Shown piece by piece: positions 13,527 through 20,798 of a stretch of 64,000 nucleotides of DNA. The translations under genes were made by a program, and so were the position numbers. Position 1 is the first letter of the stretch. Every line of letters starts with the position of its first letter. The notes beneath the pieces were generated by a model, which was not told the DNA's origin, made no database searches, and worked only from the letters and a program-made list of their open reading frames with translations. This stretch comes from Allomuricauda sp. (GTDB lineage Bacteria; Bacteroidota; Bacteroidia; Flavobacteriales; Flavobacteriaceae): assembly GCA_030148335.1 (NCBI GenBank), contig JASBTQ010000007.1, positions 1-64,000 of the forward strand, read 5' to 3'.

Positions 13527-14897
13527 TCAGGAATTGTATTTGAGTTTCCGCTCGATGGTCTCAATCATCACATTGGCGATGTCCATTCCCGTGGTATTTT
13601 CGATACCTTCCAATCCGGGCGAAGAGTTTACTTCCAAAAGCAATGGTCCCCTATTGGAACGGATGATGTCCACCCCTGCCACATCCAGGTTGAGCACTTT
13701 TGCCGATTTGATGGCGAGTTTTCGTTCTTCTGATGTGATTTTGATCAATGATGCGGCCCCACCTTGGTGGATGTTGGCCCTGAATTCCCCTTTTTGGGCC
13801 TGACGCTGCATGGAGGCCACTACCTTGCCGTTCACCACAAAACACCGTATATCCTGTCCATTGGCCTCTTTGATGAATTCCTGCACCAAAATATTGGTCT
13901 GTACGCTCTTGAAAGCATTGATGACACTCTCGGCGGCCTTGTTCGTCTCGGCCAACACCACGCCCTTGCCCTGCGTACTTTCCAATAGTTTGATGATCAA
14001 TGGGGCCCCGTTCACCATTCGGATTAGGTCCTTGGTGTCCATCGGGGATTTGGCAAAGCCAGTTATGGGGATATGGATATCGTTCTTGGAGAAAAGTTGT
14101 GAAGCAAACAGTTTGTCCCTGGATTTGCTGATGGCATCGGCCGTGTTCAGGCAATACACCCCTAGTGTATCGAACTGTCTCAATAGGGCGCAACCATAGA
14201 AAGTGACCGATGGCTTGATCCTTGGGATCACCGCATCGAACTTATCCAAAATATTCCCTCCCCTATACCTGATTTCAGGCGAACTGGCATCGAGTTTCAT
14301 GTAAACGTTCTCCACATTCAAAAAGACCACCTTGTGCCCTCGCATCTCACCGGCCTCGATGATCCGCTTGTTGCTGTACAGCTCCGGGTTACTAGCCAAA
14401 AGGCCAAGGGTCAACCCAGATTTGTCCGATTTATACGGGCGGTACTTGATGGCCATTTCATCTGGAGAGATATTGCCCATGCTAAAACTCTTGGAGGGGT
14501 CCACCAAATACCTCTCGTTGATGGCCTCCCGTCCCAACAACATGCGGTATTCCATAGTGTCCCTATTGGCCAAGGTAAGTTCAATATCGAAGATTTTCCC
14601 GCCAAGGTTCACGGGGGTCTTTATCACAGGCCGTTCCTCGGATATGCCCTGCGAACTTTTCACACTACGCATATCCACCAACTTGGACTGGCACAATATG
14701 GAAATGCTCCTGTTGTCCTGCAATGGGTTTACCTCGAACCTTACCCAATCTTCCAGTCCTTTGGTAAAGATTTTGATCTTGCTGGCTTGGATCGATGATG
14801 TCTTTGCACCGGAATCCACCCTGGCCTTGATGGCGGGTATCCCAAGTTCCTCAAAACGGCACCATTCCTCGCTGCCCAATATTTCCAAATTGTCCAA
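13527..14897 (-). CDS. Fusion: N-terminal ATP-dependent zinc protease-like (RimB/DUF785-type) domain plus C-terminal RimK-type ATP-grasp ligase
   Basis: N-term [20 protein letters not shown]...[20 protein letters not shown]-term [52 protein letters not shown]. Confidence 0.88.
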
Positions 14898-14909
14898 AAT
14901 AAAATGCTT

Positions 14910-15695
14910 TTAATTGATTATACGCATGATGAACAGGTCCAGCACTTCGACCAATATCAAAATGATAATGATCCATTCCAGCCTACTGCTCTCCCTGTGG
15001 TCCATGATGTCCTTGAAAAGGCTTAGGTTCTCTTTGATGATGTATCCCTGTTCCTTGATGGTCCTATAGCGTTCCTTTAGGTCAAAGATCTGTTTCAAGT
15101 TCCTGTCCAACCGATCGAGGGCCTCATCTTCCCACACCACTTCCGGGGAATCAAAAATATAGAGGTTTTCAGAAATCTGGTTGTTGATGTTCAGGACCCT
15201 GGCAATGTATCTTTTGAGTTTTTTGCCCCCTAGGTCCAACCGACCGTGGTGTTCCAAATAATTGGTGTGCTCCCTGGTCTCCTTCATGATTTGGTCCGAA
15301 AGTCCGGCAAAATGGTCCAATGCCACGGATTGCGATAGGTGCAGCAGGGCCAACCGCATGCCTTCCACATTCGATTGGGGCATTATGATCTTGTTGTTGG
15401 TCACTTTTGCAGGCTCCCCGTCAGGTACGACCTCTATCTCCATTTCATCATTGAGCTCCGATTGGTCCCAGCCTTCGCAAAAAGGTTTCAGTCCATCCAA
15501 AATCTCGGTCATGGAGGCTTTATCAAAACCATAAAAGGAGACAATCCCGTACCTGAAAACATACAGATATTGTGGACCATCGGCATAGAAAAGTTCATCC
15601 CTGTCGCCAAAGATGAGTTTTCTTCCAATGGCCTGTCTGTAGGCAGAAATGTCTATGTTCCCTGCAAGGTGCAAGGCTATGGCTTTTGAATCCAT
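14910..15695 (-). CDS. RMD1/DUF155 family protein
   Basis: FRYGIVSFYGFD, LSQSVALDHFAGLSDQIM, and a single C-terminal TM segment. Confidence 0.8.
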   Translation of the reverse strand: MDSKAIALHLAGNIDISAYRQAIGRKLIFGDRDELFYADGPQYLYVFRYGIVSFYGFDKASMTEILDGLKPFCEGWDQSELNDEMEIEVVPDGEPAKVTNNKIIMPQSNVEGMRLALLHLSQSVALDHFAGLSDQIMKETREHTNYLEHHGRLDLGGKKLKRYIARVLNINNQISENLYIFDSPEVVWEDEALDRLDRNLKQIFDLKERYRTIKEQGYIIKENLSLFKDIMDHRESSRLEWIIIILILVEVLDLFIMRIIN

Positions 15696-15703
15696 GGTAT
15701 CTA

Positions 15704-16117
15704 TCAGGTTGCGAAAATCTCCTCTGGGTCCCTAAAGCTCTTGAACTCCACCATGTAGCCGTTGGGGTCTTGTATAAAAAAGGACAGGTGCTCCCCGACC
15801 TTGTCCTGCATGAACGTGGCCTCGGTGGTCACCTCTAGGTCCAATTGGAACAACCTTGAATACAGCTCTCCCCAGACATCCACGGGAACGATCACCCCAA
15901 AATGGAACGAGGGCAGGATATAATCCTCCAAACGGTAATTCTTGAAATCAAAGTTGAAGTTTCCCGATTGGGTAAAGGTCAGCTGGTTGCCAAAGAGGTC
16001 AACATCCAGCCATTTTTCGGTATGTCTGCCCAAATTGGCCTTGATTACATCTTGATAAAAGACACGGGTCTCTTCAATATCCTTACATGGCAAGGCGAGG
16101 TGGAACTTTGTATCCAT
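15704..16117 (-). CDS. VOC family (glyoxalase-like) protein
   Basis: FHLALPCKDIEETRVFYQDV...FFIQDPNGYMVEFKSF. Confidence 0.88.
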   Translation of the reverse strand: MDTKFHLALPCKDIEETRVFYQDVIKANLGRHTEKWLDVDLFGNQLTFTQSGNFNFDFKNYRLEDYILPSFHFGVIVPVDVWGELYSRLFQLDLEVTTEATFMQDKVGEHLSFFIQDPNGYMVEFKSFRDPEEIFAT

Positions 16118-16529
16118 TTTCTTTGTTTGTTTTTCTTCCTAAACTTTTAAAATAGGACCGAACGGCCATCCGGTCCATTTTGTCCATAAAGGGCAGGGCT
16201 TCTTTCCATTCCAGCCAAAGGGCTTCTTCAAACTTGTATTTTTCCTTTACTTTTATGGTCCGTGGTTTCATTTGGACCAAAAAATAGTTTTTCACCATGT
16301 TCCCCATCTTCCCTTTTTTCGTGTGGGAAAGATAAAAACTCAACTGTGCTTCGGACAGTTTCAACTTTATTTCCTCACCCACTTCACGAACCAGCGTTTC
16401 ACTTTCCGTCTCCTTCTTTTTCTTCACACCACCGGGCAAAGTGTACCTTAATGGACCGCCTACTTTTCTTAGCACGAGAACCTTGTCCTTGTGTATGGCA
16501 ATCAATCGGGATTTGACTGTTTTTTTCAT
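16083..16529 (-). CDS. NUDIX hydrolase-like protein
   Basis: LPGGVKKKKETESETLVREVGEEIKL approximates the Nudix box GX5EX7REUXEEXGU. Confidence 0.85.
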   Translation of the reverse strand: MKKTVKSRLIAIHKDKVLVLRKVGGPLRYTLPGGVKKKKETESETLVREVGEEIKLKLSEAQLSFYLSHTKKGKMGNMVKNYFLVQMKPRTIKVKEKYKFEEALWLEWKEALPFMDKMDRMAVRSYFKSLGRKTNKENGYKVPPRLAM

Positions 16530-16645
16530 AAGGCTCCTCTTTACTTAAGGAATGTAGATGGAAATTACGCATATATGGTCTGGTTTCAATGCATCCAACC
16601 TATATTTTTTCCTCTTTATGCTGTACAGTCTTCTTCAAACAGATG

Positions 16646-16963
16646 TTACTCCTCCCCAGTATTCTCCAGACCTTCAGTGTCCAAAGAGCCTTCCTCTTCT
16701 GAATCGGAATCGGTGTCGACGTCCTCATGGACTTCCATGGCCATCACCAAACGTTTGCTCACTTTCACGAGATATGCGGTGTCCTCTGTACGTACTTCGA
16801 TGCATTCCACCACTTCATTGCTGGCATTCCGGTAGGTGACAATATCATCGTCATCGTACCCATCCGGAAATTTCTCCACGAGTAGGTTCAGGATATGGTT
16901 GTCGAGCTTTTTATAGTCCACGATAACACGCTTCAACGTCATTGGTTGTCTGTTCTTCATCAT
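16646..16963 (-). CDS. Small protein of unknown function with highly acidic C-terminal tail
   Basis: ATG overlaps the stop of the upstream DHS-like gene (ATGTGATGATG); tail DVDTDSDSEEEGSLDTEGLENTGEE. The longer ORF-track start lies inside the upstream gene. Confidence 0.75.
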   Translation of the reverse strand: MMKNRQPMTLKRVIVDYKKLDNHILNLLVEKFPDGYDDDDIVTYRNASNEVVECIEVRTEDTAYLVKVSKRLVMAMEVHEDVDTDSDSEEEGSLDTEGLENTGEE

Positions 16964-17937
16964 CACATGTCTAGGAGGTATGCAAAAATTAGGGGCGCCA
17001 CAATGGTCGCATCCGATTCCACAATGAACTTGGGGGTGTCTATATCCAATTTCCCCCATGTGATCTTTTCATTGGGCACAGCACCGGAGTAGGAACCGTA
17101 ACTTGTGGTGGAATCGCTGATCTGACAGAAATAGCTCCAGAATGGGGTCTCTGTCTGCTCCAAATCCTGATAAAGCATAGGCACTACGCAAATGGGGAAG
17201 TCCCCCGCAATACCTCCCCCTATTTGGAAGAAACCGATACCTTTTTCAGAGTTTTTTTGGTACCAATCGGCCAAAAAGGTCATGTACTCGATACCTGACT
17301 TCATGGTACTCGCCTTCAGCTCGCCCTTGATCACATAACTGGCAAAGATGTTCCCCATGGTACTGTCCTCCCAACCTGGGACCACAATGGGCAGGTTCTT
17401 CTTGGCAGCCGCATACATCCAGGAATCCTTGATGTCTATCTCATAATATTGCTCCAAAACGCCCGAAAGCAGGAGCTTGTACATAAATTCATGGGGGAAA
17501 TAGCGCTCGCCTTTGTCATCGGCATCTTTCCAGATCTTGTAAATGTGCTGTTGCAAGCGTCTAAAGGCCTCCTCTTCGGGGATGCAGGTATCGGTAACGC
17601 GGTTCAGTCCCTTTTCCAACAGTTCCCATTCTTGCTGTGGGGTAAGGTCCCTATAGTTGGGCACCCTTCGGTAGTGGGAATGCGCCACAAGGTTCATGAG
17701 ATCCTCTTCCAAGTTGGCACCTGTGCACGAGACAATGTGTACTTTATCGGTGCGTATGATATCGGCGAAGATCTTGCCCAGTTCCGCCGTACTCATGGCG
17801 CCGGCAAGGGACACCAACATCTTGGAACCCTGCTCCAACTGGGCCTCATACCCTTTGGCGGCATCCACCAATGCGGCAGAGTTGAAGTGCAAAAAATATT
17901 TTTGAATGAATTGTGATATTTCTCCTTTATTGTTCAT
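16963..17937 (-). CDS. Deoxyhypusine synthase family protein (bacterial homospermidine synthase-like)
   Basis: SCTGANLEEDLMNL, VVPGWEDSTMGNIF, IGFFQIGGGIAGDFPICVVPM, DSTTSYGSYSGAVPNEKITWGK. Confidence 0.9.
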   Translation of the reverse strand: MNNKGEISQFIQKYFLHFNSAALVDAAKGYEAQLEQGSKMLVSLAGAMSTAELGKIFADIIRTDKVHIVSCTGANLEEDLMNLVAHSHYRRVPNYRDLTPQQEWELLEKGLNRVTDTCIPEEEAFRRLQQHIYKIWKDADDKGERYFPHEFMYKLLLSGVLEQYYEIDIKDSWMYAAAKKNLPIVVPGWEDSTMGNIFASYVIKGELKASTMKSGIEYMTFLADWYQKNSEKGIGFFQIGGGIAGDFPICVVPMLYQDLEQTETPFWSYFCQISDSTTSYGSYSGAVPNEKITWGKLDIDTPKFIVESDATIVAPLIFAYLLDM

Positions 17938-18868
17938 CGTAATCGTCAATTGGGTTTACGGATTTCTTAAAGTTATCATTGTTTTCCTCAAATCCGTCCT
18001 CTAAGTAATCATTCTTTTTTAAAAATTTATAGCTCAACATTTTGTAGTACAGCTTTGCGGCCAAAAAATCGGAAGATCTTTCCTGTGCGTTGGGGCACAG
18101 CTCCACAATATCAAAGCCCACTACGTTTTTCTCCTCAAAGACCCTTTTTAGAAAATCCAGGGTTTCATACCAGAAAAGCCCTCCTGGTTCCGGTGTCCCG
18201 GTAGATGGCAGTATGGAGGGGTCAAAAGCGTCCAGGTCAAAACTGATGTAAACATTATCTGTCATCAGATCTAGAGCGGTGTCCATCCAAAAATCATCGG
18301 TGACCATTTCATGTGCAAAGAACACCTTGTCCCGATCCATGACCAAAGTTTCCGAATGGTCCATACTTCGGATGCCCACCTGCACCAAATTTGTGGTCTC
18401 ATTGGCTTCTCGCATGGCACAGGCATGGTTGTATCGGGAACCGTTGTATTCCTTTCTCAGATCGGCATGGGCATCCAAGTGCAGAACGGTAAGGTCTTCA
18501 AAACATTCATTGAACGCCCTAATGGCCCCAATGGAAATAGAATGCTCCCCACCGATCATGGTGACCAGCTTGTTCCTTTTGATGTATTCCTTTACGGTTT
18601 TATGGACGGCATCCACCATCTGTTCAGGGGAATCCAGCGCATCGATGGAATCGGCCAGATAAATGCCCTGTCTATAGACCTCGGTATCCGTTTCAATGTC
18701 ATACCACTCCATGTTCTCCGATGCTTCCAAAAAGGCCTCGGGGCCTTTGTCGGCACCCTTCCCCCATGTACTGGTGCCATCATAGGGCACGGGCAACAAT
18801 ATTACTTTGGCTTTTTCAGGAGATGCGTATTCCTTTGGAATACCGGCATATATTCTATTCGTTTTCAT
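17927..18868 (-). CDS. speB: Agmatinase (ureohydrolase family)
   Basis: MIGGEHSISIGAIRAF, LHLDAHADLR, SFDLDAFDPSILPSTGTPEPGG metal-binding motifs. Confidence 0.93.
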   Translation of the reverse strand: MKTNRIYAGIPKEYASPEKAKVILLPVPYDGTSTWGKGADKGPEAFLEASENMEWYDIETDTEVYRQGIYLADSIDALDSPEQMVDAVHKTVKEYIKRNKLVTMIGGEHSISIGAIRAFNECFEDLTVLHLDAHADLRKEYNGSRYNHACAMREANETTNLVQVGIRSMDHSETLVMDRDKVFFAHEMVTDDFWMDTALDLMTDNVYISFDLDAFDPSILPSTGTPEPGGLFWYETLDFLKRVFEEKNVVGFDIVELCPNAQERSSDFLAAKLYYKMLSYKFLKKNDYLEDGFEENNDNFKKSVNPIDDYDEQ

Positions 18869-18886: not shown

Positions 18887-20341
18887 TCAATTTTTGCTGG
18901 GCACGGGCAGCTTCTTCGAAGCCACTAGGCTATCCGATGATTTCTTCGCCCCATAACCGAGTATGGAAAGGAATTCGCCCGCAGTTTGTTGTTCAGCAAA
19001 GACAGAGGTCTTCAACTTCCCTTCCTTGTCCTTGTTGATCAGTATGTGCTTGGGATGTGGGATAAGACAGTGCTGTAGCCCCCCAAACCCACCAATGGTT
19101 TCTTGGTAGGCACCCGTATTGAAGAATCCGATGTAGAGCGGCCTGTCCTTTCTGTATTTCGGAAGATAAATAGCGTTCATGTGCTGCTCCGAGTTGTAAT
19201 AATCGTCACTATCGCAGGTGAGTCCACCCAACAGCACCCTTTCATATTCTTCGTTCCACCTGTTGATGGACAGGGTAATGAACCTTTTGCTGATGGCCCA
19301 CGAATCGGGCATGGTGGTAATGAACGATGAATTGATCATGTTCCACTTTTCCCTGTCGTTCTGCTGTTTTTGATAGAGGACCTCATAGATGGTGCCGCCA
19401 CTTTCGCCCACCGTGAAACTTCCAAATTCGGTGAAGATATTGGGCACTTCCACCCCAGCCTCTTCGCATGCCTGTTTGATCTGATGGATGATCTCATCCA
19501 CCATGTACTCGTAATCATATTCGAACGCCAAGGAGTTCTTTATGGGAAACCCACCGCCAATATTGAGGCTGTCCAAGGTTGGGCACACTTTTTTGAGGCT
19601 GATGTACACCTTCAAACATTTCAAAAGTTCGTTCCAGTAATAGGCCGTGTCCCGGATGCCCGTATTGATGAAAAAGTGGAGCATTTTCAGCTCGACCTTG
19701 GGATTCTCCTTTATGGATTGGTTGTAGAAAGGCACAATGTTCTTGTACCCAATGCCCAACCTAGAGGTGTAAAACTCGAATTTTGGCTCTTCCTCGGAAG
19801 CAATACGGATGCCTACCTTGAAATTGCCGTCGATGGCATCGCTCAGTAGCTCTATTTCCTCATAATTATCGATAATCGGAATGCAGTTCTTGTGCCCATT
19901 GTTCATCAATCGTGCTATGTTCTGGATGTATTGGTCCCTTTTGAAGCCATTGCAGATCACGTAGGTGTCCTTGGTGACCTTGCCTGTTTTCTTCAAGTGC
20001 TCCACGATGTCAATATCAAAGGCCGATGAGGTCTCTATATGGATGTCGTTTTTCAATGCCTCGTTCAGCACATGCTCAAAATGGGAACTTTTGGTACAGT
20101 AGCAATAGTGGTAAGAACCCGAATAATCATGCTTCTTCATGGCCTCCCCGAACCATTTCTTTGCCCGTTGGATGTTGTCCGATATCTTGGGGAGATAGGT
20201 GAATTTTAAGGGTGTACCATAGCGCTGTATCAAATCATACAGGTCTATGCCATGGAACTGAAGTTTGTTATCCTGTAGTGTGAATTCCTCTTGTGGAAAA
20301 TCGTAGGTCTGCTCGATTAGATCGATATATTTTGTTTTCAT
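18887..20341 (-). CDS. speA: Arginine decarboxylase (PLP fold III type)
   Basis: HYCYCTKSSHFEHVL, NIGGGFPIKNS, ITTMPDSWAISKRF, LTCDSDD, FFNTGAYQE; followed by agmatinase. Confidence 0.85.
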   Translation of the reverse strand: MKTKYIDLIEQTYDFPQEEFTLQDNKLQFHGIDLYDLIQRYGTPLKFTYLPKISDNIQRAKKWFGEAMKKHDYSGSYHYCYCTKSSHFEHVLNEALKNDIHIETSSAFDIDIVEHLKKTGKVTKDTYVICNGFKRDQYIQNIARLMNNGHKNCIPIIDNYEEIELLSDAIDGNFKVGIRIASEEEPKFEFYTSRLGIGYKNIVPFYNQSIKENPKVELKMLHFFINTGIRDTAYYWNELLKCLKVYISLKKVCPTLDSLNIGGGFPIKNSLAFEYDYEYMVDEIIHQIKQACEEAGVEVPNIFTEFGSFTVGESGGTIYEVLYQKQQNDREKWNMINSSFITTMPDSWAISKRFITLSINRWNEEYERVLLGGLTCDSDDYYNSEQHMNAIYLPKYRKDRPLYIGFFNTGAYQETIGGFGGLQHCLIPHPKHILINKDKEGKLKTSVFAEQQTAGEFLSILGYGAKKSSDSLVASKKLPVPSKN

Positions 20342-20617
20342 TTAAATTTCGTATTGATAAAAAAACTGATAGCTAATTTTTGTGGACAAATGAGCAGCAA
20401 GTTCTCAGATACGAAACTCAAATACAGTATATGCAACAAAGAAGGGAGTCCGTGAAAAATCACGGATGATGGAGTGTTTTTCGGAAGTCGTCCCTAAAAT
20501 CCGGTGTCTTGACCTGAAGACGGCTTTTTGGGTTGACTTCCTTATTCCCAAAAGCCCGAACATGAAAAAAGTTTTCAACGCAATTAGGTGATGTGTCCCA
20601 ATATTCTGGACTCATTC
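20342..20617 (-). promoter_or_regulatory. Candidate structured 5' leader of arginine decarboxylase gene
   Basis: About 275-nt predicted leader with nested helices and two mutually exclusive pairings (see findings). Confidence 0.5.
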
Positions 20618-20623
20618 AGGGGT

Positions 20624-20652
20624 CAAACATAAACAAAAAACAAATACGTCAA
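20624..20652 (-). promoter_or_regulatory. Predicted Bacteroidota sigma-A promoter for speA
   Basis: Minus strand TTG-N18-TATGTTTG matches the TTG/TAnnTTTG consensus. Confidence 0.55.
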
Positions 20653-20798
20653 CTTTTTTTGCAAAAAAAAATCAATCATCATAAATCGATGTAAATCAAA
20701 TAGTTAATAGTAACGAAACTCCATTACCCTGCTGCTATTTGTTCCAAAGGCAATAAAATAAGAACCTGAACGCCTTCACCGGCATTCCAAATATGATG

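Follow-up and report, generated by a model that had tools for sequence, protein, structure and literature searches.

A Conserved Pseudoknotted RNA Overlapping a Leader ORF Upstream of speA in Flavobacteriaceae: A Candidate Composite Regulator of Polyamine Synthesis

The speA Operon and Its Leader

The window, i.e., the whole 64,000-nt stretch of Allomuricauda sp. DNA analysed here, carries a polyamine operon on the minus strand. Its main genes and the elements preceding them are as follows:

16963–17949, minus: deoxyhypusine/homospermidine synthase-like gene (Pfam DS)
17927–18868, minus: speB, an agmatinase-family gene (NCBIfam agmatinase above cut-off)
18887–20341, minus: gene for a speA-like biosynthetic arginine decarboxylase, the putative target of the leader
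20591–20615, minus: 5′ hairpin ATGAGTCC...GGGACACAT, read from the sequence and probably lying right after the predicted transcription start site (TSS)
20624–20652, minus: Bacteroidota-type promoter predicted from the sequence, TTG (-33 region), N18 and TATGTTTG (-7 box)

The rest of the polyamine operon region (13527–17059, minus) includes genes for NUDIX, glyoxalase-like and DUF155/RMND1 proteins and a RimB-RimK fusion (S6 glutamate ligase), as well as for an acidic protein without a known family (16646–17059, minus). The linkage of polyamine synthesis genes with RimK is unusual.

The promoter had been proposed by an earlier note on this DNA, and the motif TTG-N18-TATGTTTG was found at these positions. 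The placement of the predicted TSS is plausible, since TAnnTTTG boxes are enriched upstream of orthologous leaders: they were found 5′ of 29 out of 53 leaders, compared with 13% in shuffles, and lie mostly 8–10 or 29–36 nt before helix P0 (see below). The 5′ hairpin has a counterpart in congeners (AATGAGTCC..GGACGCATT). The predicted leader of about 275 nt folds more stably than all 200 of its dinucleotide shuffles (z = -3.15).

A Pseudoknotted Fold Conserved among speA Leaders

Orthologues of speA were taken from public genomes, and most of them have a recognisable leader; 54 leaders were aligned and 58 were held out. For the whole alignment, RNAalifold returned the pseudoknot strands alone, because a nested fold cannot hold the pseudoknot together with the other helices. 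For this reason, the full structure was drawn up manually before being tested on shuffled and slid controls and on the held-out sequences. Five helices, namely P0, P1, P2, P3 and the pseudoknot, hold across the 54 aligned leaders. Their positions in the window, together with an additional hairpin P4, are given below:

20587–20592, minus: P0, 5′ strand, upstream of the leader start codon
20488–20493, minus: P0, 3′ strand, within the leader ORF
20556–20560, minus: P1, 5′ strand (from the alignment)
20500–20504, minus: P1, 3′ strand (from the alignment)
20547–20555, minus: P2, 5′ strand (GCTTTTGGG; from the alignment)
20522–20532, minus: P2, 3′ strand (CCCAAAAAGCC), with one bulge in the window copy
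20506–20521, minus: P3 hairpin, both-side changes in 5/5 pairs
20537–20541, minus: pseudoknot strand 1 (GGAAG), in the P2 loop
20483–20487, minus: pseudoknot strand 2 (CTTCC), directly 3′ of P0
20449–20466, minus: P4 hairpin (TCCGTGA..TCACGGA), within the leader ORF

In the aligned leaders, 89.3% of the cells are paired, compared with 27–56% when the partners are slid by 1–3 columns. Both sides have changed in 22 of the 30 pairs versus 12.5 in shuffles, although the leader sequences are phylogenetically related and such counts overstate independence. Pairing is most complete in the pseudoknot (99.6%) and in P1 (99.3%, with both-side changes in 3/5 pairs), followed by P2 (89.1%, 8/9 pairs) and P0 (84.6%, 4/6 pairs). 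P0 is weak in the window leader, where three of the six pairs form, and good in most relatives. P2 reads GCTTTTGAA/TTCAAAAGC in most species and GGTGTACG/CGTACACC in Sinomicrobium (L034).

All helices are kept in the 58 held-out leaders, with the pseudoknot 93.7% paired and changed on both sides in 3/5 pairs. The covariance model used for the locus search was built without the pseudoknot, and new loci were found with that model; in the 24 most divergent ones, all helices are 72–88% paired, compared with 33–38% after sliding. Covariation thus shows that the first part of the speA leader folds into a pseudoknotted three-way-junction RNA (P0–P3 and the pseudoknot). Such a structure, conserved in the 5′ leaders of genes with related metabolic roles, is one of the features expected of a riboswitch.

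The earlier note had described most of these pairings, but arranged them as a switch between two mutually exclusive states. The gggcttttggg/cccaaaaagcc helix (P2), the gtctt/aagac hairpin (P3) and the ggaagtc/gacttcc helix (20535–20541 with 20483–20489, the pseudoknot) are all present and receive support from covariation in orthologues. The ccgtga/tcacgg hairpin at 20450–20465 corresponds to P4, where 72% of leaders form a perfect stem of at least 5 pairs, compared with 18% of shuffles. As for the exclusivity, P2 and ggaagtc/gacttcc are compatible and belong to one pseudoknotted fold. The alternative cccaaaa/ttttaggg pairing (TTTTAGGG) is not conserved, with 62.7% of cells paired versus 60.1% after sliding by one column, and one of its pairs forms in only 6 of the 54 sequences. 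Based on the unconserved alternative helix and on the single fold formed by the main helices, the two-state switch was rejected, while the view of the speA leader as structured, probably regulatory and without an Rfam family is strongly supported. The ORF that overlaps the RNA was absent from that account.

A Leader ORF over the Same Bases

Most of the structured region lies within a short ORF:

20405–20578, minus: leader ORF, TTG start, 57 codons, TGA stop, product LKTFFMFGLLGIRKSTQKAVFRSRHRILGTTSEKHSIIRDFSRTPFFVAYTVFEFRI; start, frame, length and stop conserved
20405–20476, minus: C-terminal segment of the ORF, codons 35 to stop, with protein-level selection

In 113 distinct leaders, the start codon of the ORF (TTG, ATG or GTG) falls at a single position; no other codons were admitted by the start rule, although the shared T and G are also invariant columns in the leader alignment. 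Its length is 55–57 aa in 93 of the 113 leaders, and the remaining two frames are closed in 113/113 and 110/113. With conserved start, frame and stop, the ORF is located 52–148 nt upstream of speA.

Two parts of the ORF evolve differently. Over the RNA core (codons 2–33), few synonymous differences have accumulated (pS 0.12), in keeping with RNA-level constraint. From codon 35 onwards, pN is 0.20 and pS 0.61, giving a pN/pS of 0.33 in frame versus 1.62 and 1.47 out of frame; this substitution pattern shows that the segment is under selection at the protein level. The ORF product terminates in I or V in 106 of the 113 leaders and carries I, F or L two residues earlier (position -3) in 109, so that the C-terminal rule is [I/F/L]-x-[I/V]-stop. 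In this set, the three clear copies located before genes other than speA end in A or T. A short ORF near the regulated gene with amino acid-level conservation near its C-terminus is typical of leader peptides, and the ORF is presumably translated.

In Arenibacter (L042, L048, L054, L065), an ORF with SQHDYFFIPTTEKQIIV before the stop is kept and the pseudoknot core has diverged past recognition. Four further speA leaders without the RNA core (L044, L047, L051, L066) have short ORFs ending in LPIRI, LPIRM, RKKVWPLLPLIV or LPIHI. Aequorivita-type leaders have likewise lost the RNA core, and their ORFs end in ..LPIRI or ..RKKVWPLLPLIV.

These data bear first on a plain metabolite-binding riboswitch for a polyamine, agmatine, arginine or homospermidine, in which the ORF would be incidental and the RNA merely open in one frame. 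A compact conserved pseudoknot is typical of aptamers, the copies before other genes keep the RNA and lose the C-terminal I/V, and one copy without the ORF (L138, see below) keeps the five helices nearly complete. Against this, the start, length and stop are constant in the 113 leaders, the low pN/pS downstream of the fold is confined to one frame, and the ORF outlasts the RNA in some leaders (Arenibacter, Aequorivita). We consider this explanation improbable; as judged from the alignments, a pure riboswitch reading is incomplete because the RNA is embedded in an apparently protein-coding leader ORF under selection.

Conversely, control could be exerted by the leader peptide only: as in SpeFL or TnaC, the peptide in the exit tunnel would respond to arginine, agmatine or a polyamine by arrest at termination, and the fold would bind no ligand and just time or limit initiation at the leader. 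The confinement of protein-level selection to the last ~20 codons, the terminal residues and their loss in the non-speA copies, and the persistence of the C-terminus without the RNA core all fit such a peptide. Yet the C-termini fall into several unlike classes (SQHxYxFVPTT.., ..TVFxFRI, ..RKKVWALLPIIV and ..RLAYWLNPIRI), which is unusual for a single ligand pocket, and the constraint on the RNA core far exceeds the needs of a timing device, which makes this version unlikely, if somewhat less so than the plain riboswitch.

The ORF might also encode a small protein with a function of its own, as an independent gene autoregulated by the RNA fold. Protein-level selection on the C-terminal part agrees with this, but the ORF occurs only with the polyamine operon, its N-terminal part follows the RNA constraint, the C-termini are unlike between clades, and the leader peptide has no match in Pfam or NCBIfam; such a gene seems very improbable. 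Classical attenuation at regulatory arginine codons is hardly credible at all. The speA product does consume arginine, and 7 of the 57 codons in the window ORF encode Arg, but there is no run of Arg codons, Arg makes up 4.9% of the C-terminal part on average, and the stretch from the leader ORF to speA yielded no intrinsic terminator. The sole terminator-like site, near 20768–20787, is upstream of the promoter.

Predicted Sequestration of the speA Start

The end of the leader ORF can pair with the beginning of speA:

20409–20424, minus: sequestration hairpin, predicted 5′ arm, last ORF codons
20339–20354, minus: sequestration hairpin, predicted 3′ arm, over the speA start codon

In the window copy, the last ORF codons pair through the speA ATG. 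Across 35 leaders from the genus and its near relatives, the 16-bp helix is 86.2% paired, compared with 35–59% after sliding, and two pairs have changed on both sides. The helix is strong in the genus of the window and weak or absent in some other clades. On this basis we suggest, with moderate confidence, that pairing with the end of the leader ORF hides the speA initiation region, and the hairpin between the ORF end and the speA start is the likely expression platform. It has no bases in common with the pseudoknot; consequently, any coupling between the two would have to run through translation of the leader.

Distribution and Additional Copies

The model matched 194 of 400 sampled Flavobacteriaceae genomes, belonging to 132 of 237 genera, and close speA is present in 272 of the same 400 genomes. 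Almost all element-positive genomes (190/194) have speA, and the element nearly always lies directly before it. In three of the four others (L176, L177 and L178), no close speA was found and the element precedes a gene for a small acidic protein of the same operon, which suggests that the leader outlived speA; in the fourth, the match is at a contig end. In the genus of the window, the element occurs in 40 of 61 genomes; in 20 of the 21 genomes that lack it, no close speA was found, and in the last one speA is truncated by the end of a contig. About 80 speA-bearing genomes of the family have no model match, so the RNA is dispensable there. Outside the family, no element was found in the samples of the order (248 genomes) and of the phylum (346 genomes), which overlap. 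The weakest matches (L140, L141), which have no leader ORF and are not before speA, were treated as chance.

Second copies were found in several genomes. In L136, the copy precedes the acidic-protein gene, followed by RimK; in L113, L138 and L139, it precedes a gene for a small exported 'YYF' protein (ATYDGYEDGTYYF..) without a known family; and in two genomes of the window's genus (L182, L183), a partial copy (model positions 26–107) lies before a DUF155 gene. The acidic-protein, DUF155 and RimK genes near these copies have homologues in the window's own operon. The fold of the L138 copy (1501–1619, minus) is nearly complete, with P1, P3 and the pseudoknot fully paired, and an in-frame TAG interrupts its leader ORF. 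A further minus-strand copy before the small exported protein (ATYDGYEDGTYYF..) was seen in L020. At the Kordia-type locus, the exported-protein copy is divergent from the speA copy.

No match to Rfam 15 was obtained at gathering cut-offs for the window or at permissive thresholds for the leader and a relative's leader. A spermidine riboswitch of the SAM-I type was considered and rejected, as neither the window nor the relative's leader gave a SAM-type Rfam match. Weinberg and colleagues reportedly listed 224 candidate RNAs in 2017, and the families published there should be in Rfam. In the literature searched, no paper on a Bacteroidota speA leader was found. With no match in Rfam, the element is an undescribed RNA class, carried by more than half of the sampled genera of the family and by many marine flavobacteria. 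To our knowledge, very little RNA-level regulation has been described in Flavobacteriaceae.

Proposed Mechanism

Comparison of the leaders shows that the fold covers the start region and the first ~33 codons of an ORF of 55–58 codons, and that the last ~20 codons are selected as a peptide. Based on the above results, we suggest, with a probability of roughly 0.6, that the leader is a composite cis-regulator of polyamine synthesis, combining the fold, the selected leader ORF, sequestration of the speA start and its ribosome-dependent opening. One stretch of message probably acts both as an RNA switch and as a ribosome-controlled switch. As read here, the element would control entry into polyamine synthesis and combine in the same nucleotides two regulatory layers, a folded RNA and a selected leader peptide, that are usually separate.

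Since the leader ORF starts between P0 and P1, RNA folding presumably competes with leader translation. A stable fold, perhaps bound by a metabolite of the polyamine pathway, would prevent ribosomes from initiating at the leader ORF, and speA would then stay closed or be lost to Rho. Translation of the leader would instead bring a ribosome to the leader stop codon, where it would melt the sequestration hairpin and allow speA to be translated. The selected C-terminus points to a nascent peptide that may tune how long the ribosome dwells, or whether it arrests, at this stop codon. The ligand, the direction of control and the arrest are inferred, and the sensing of arginine or a polyamine is a guess from gene context. 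Bacteroidota initiate translation largely without Shine-Dalgarno pairing, and a hairpin opened by the leader ribosome would accordingly offer a testable model of translational coupling in this phylum.

The persistence of the ORF where the RNA core appears lost (Arenibacter, Aequorivita) argues for this composite regulator, and so do the second copies preceding other genes of the polyamine operon. The L138 copy argues against it, as the RNA can exist without an intact leader ORF, and so does the TTG start, since TTG codons are poor initiators. The speA-bearing genomes without a model match, the weakness or absence of the sequestration hairpin in some clades and its mere two pairs with both-side changes also count against it. 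A more ambitious version is a double sensor in one frame, in which a pseudoknot aptamer binding a polyamine-pathway compound gates initiation of the ORF, the nascent C-terminus gates termination, and both open speA. It is a tentative possibility; if true, both the RNA class and the architecture, with an aptamer and an arrest peptide sharing nucleotides, would be new.

Comparison with Known Systems

The nearest precedent in logic is orf34/SpeFL of speF in Salmonella and E. coli, likewise a short leader ORF 5′ of a polyamine decarboxylase gene. According to the relevant passages of PMC6386406, translation of orf34 unfolds an RNA structure hiding the speF ribosome-binding site and blocks Rho, and according to those of PMC8429421, SpeFL senses L-ornithine via termination arrest. 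As described there, the proteobacterial ORF has 34 codons in a 516-nt leader and contains two consecutive Arg codons, and those passages report no conserved pseudoknot over it. The present leader, in contrast, precedes arginine-specific speA, is about 275 nt long and has a covarying pseudoknot overlapping the ORF. In termination-arrest peptides of the TnaC type, selection likewise centres on the C-terminal residues that precede the stop codon, whereas the speA leader peptides, in which arrest is presumed, form several unlike C-terminal classes.

The spermidine riboswitch (PMC10853860) is likewise a candidate for regulating polyamine genes (speB, speE, speD) at the RNA level, but it is a variant of the SAM-I aptamer unrelated to the speA element, and a word search of that paper gave no Bacteroid-, Flavobacter- or speA. 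The mgtA leader, in which the passages of PMC6386406 place an Mg2+ riboswitch and the mgtL peptide in one Rho-linked 5′ region, also joins an RNA element with a leader peptide and differs from the speA leader in its target gene and signal.
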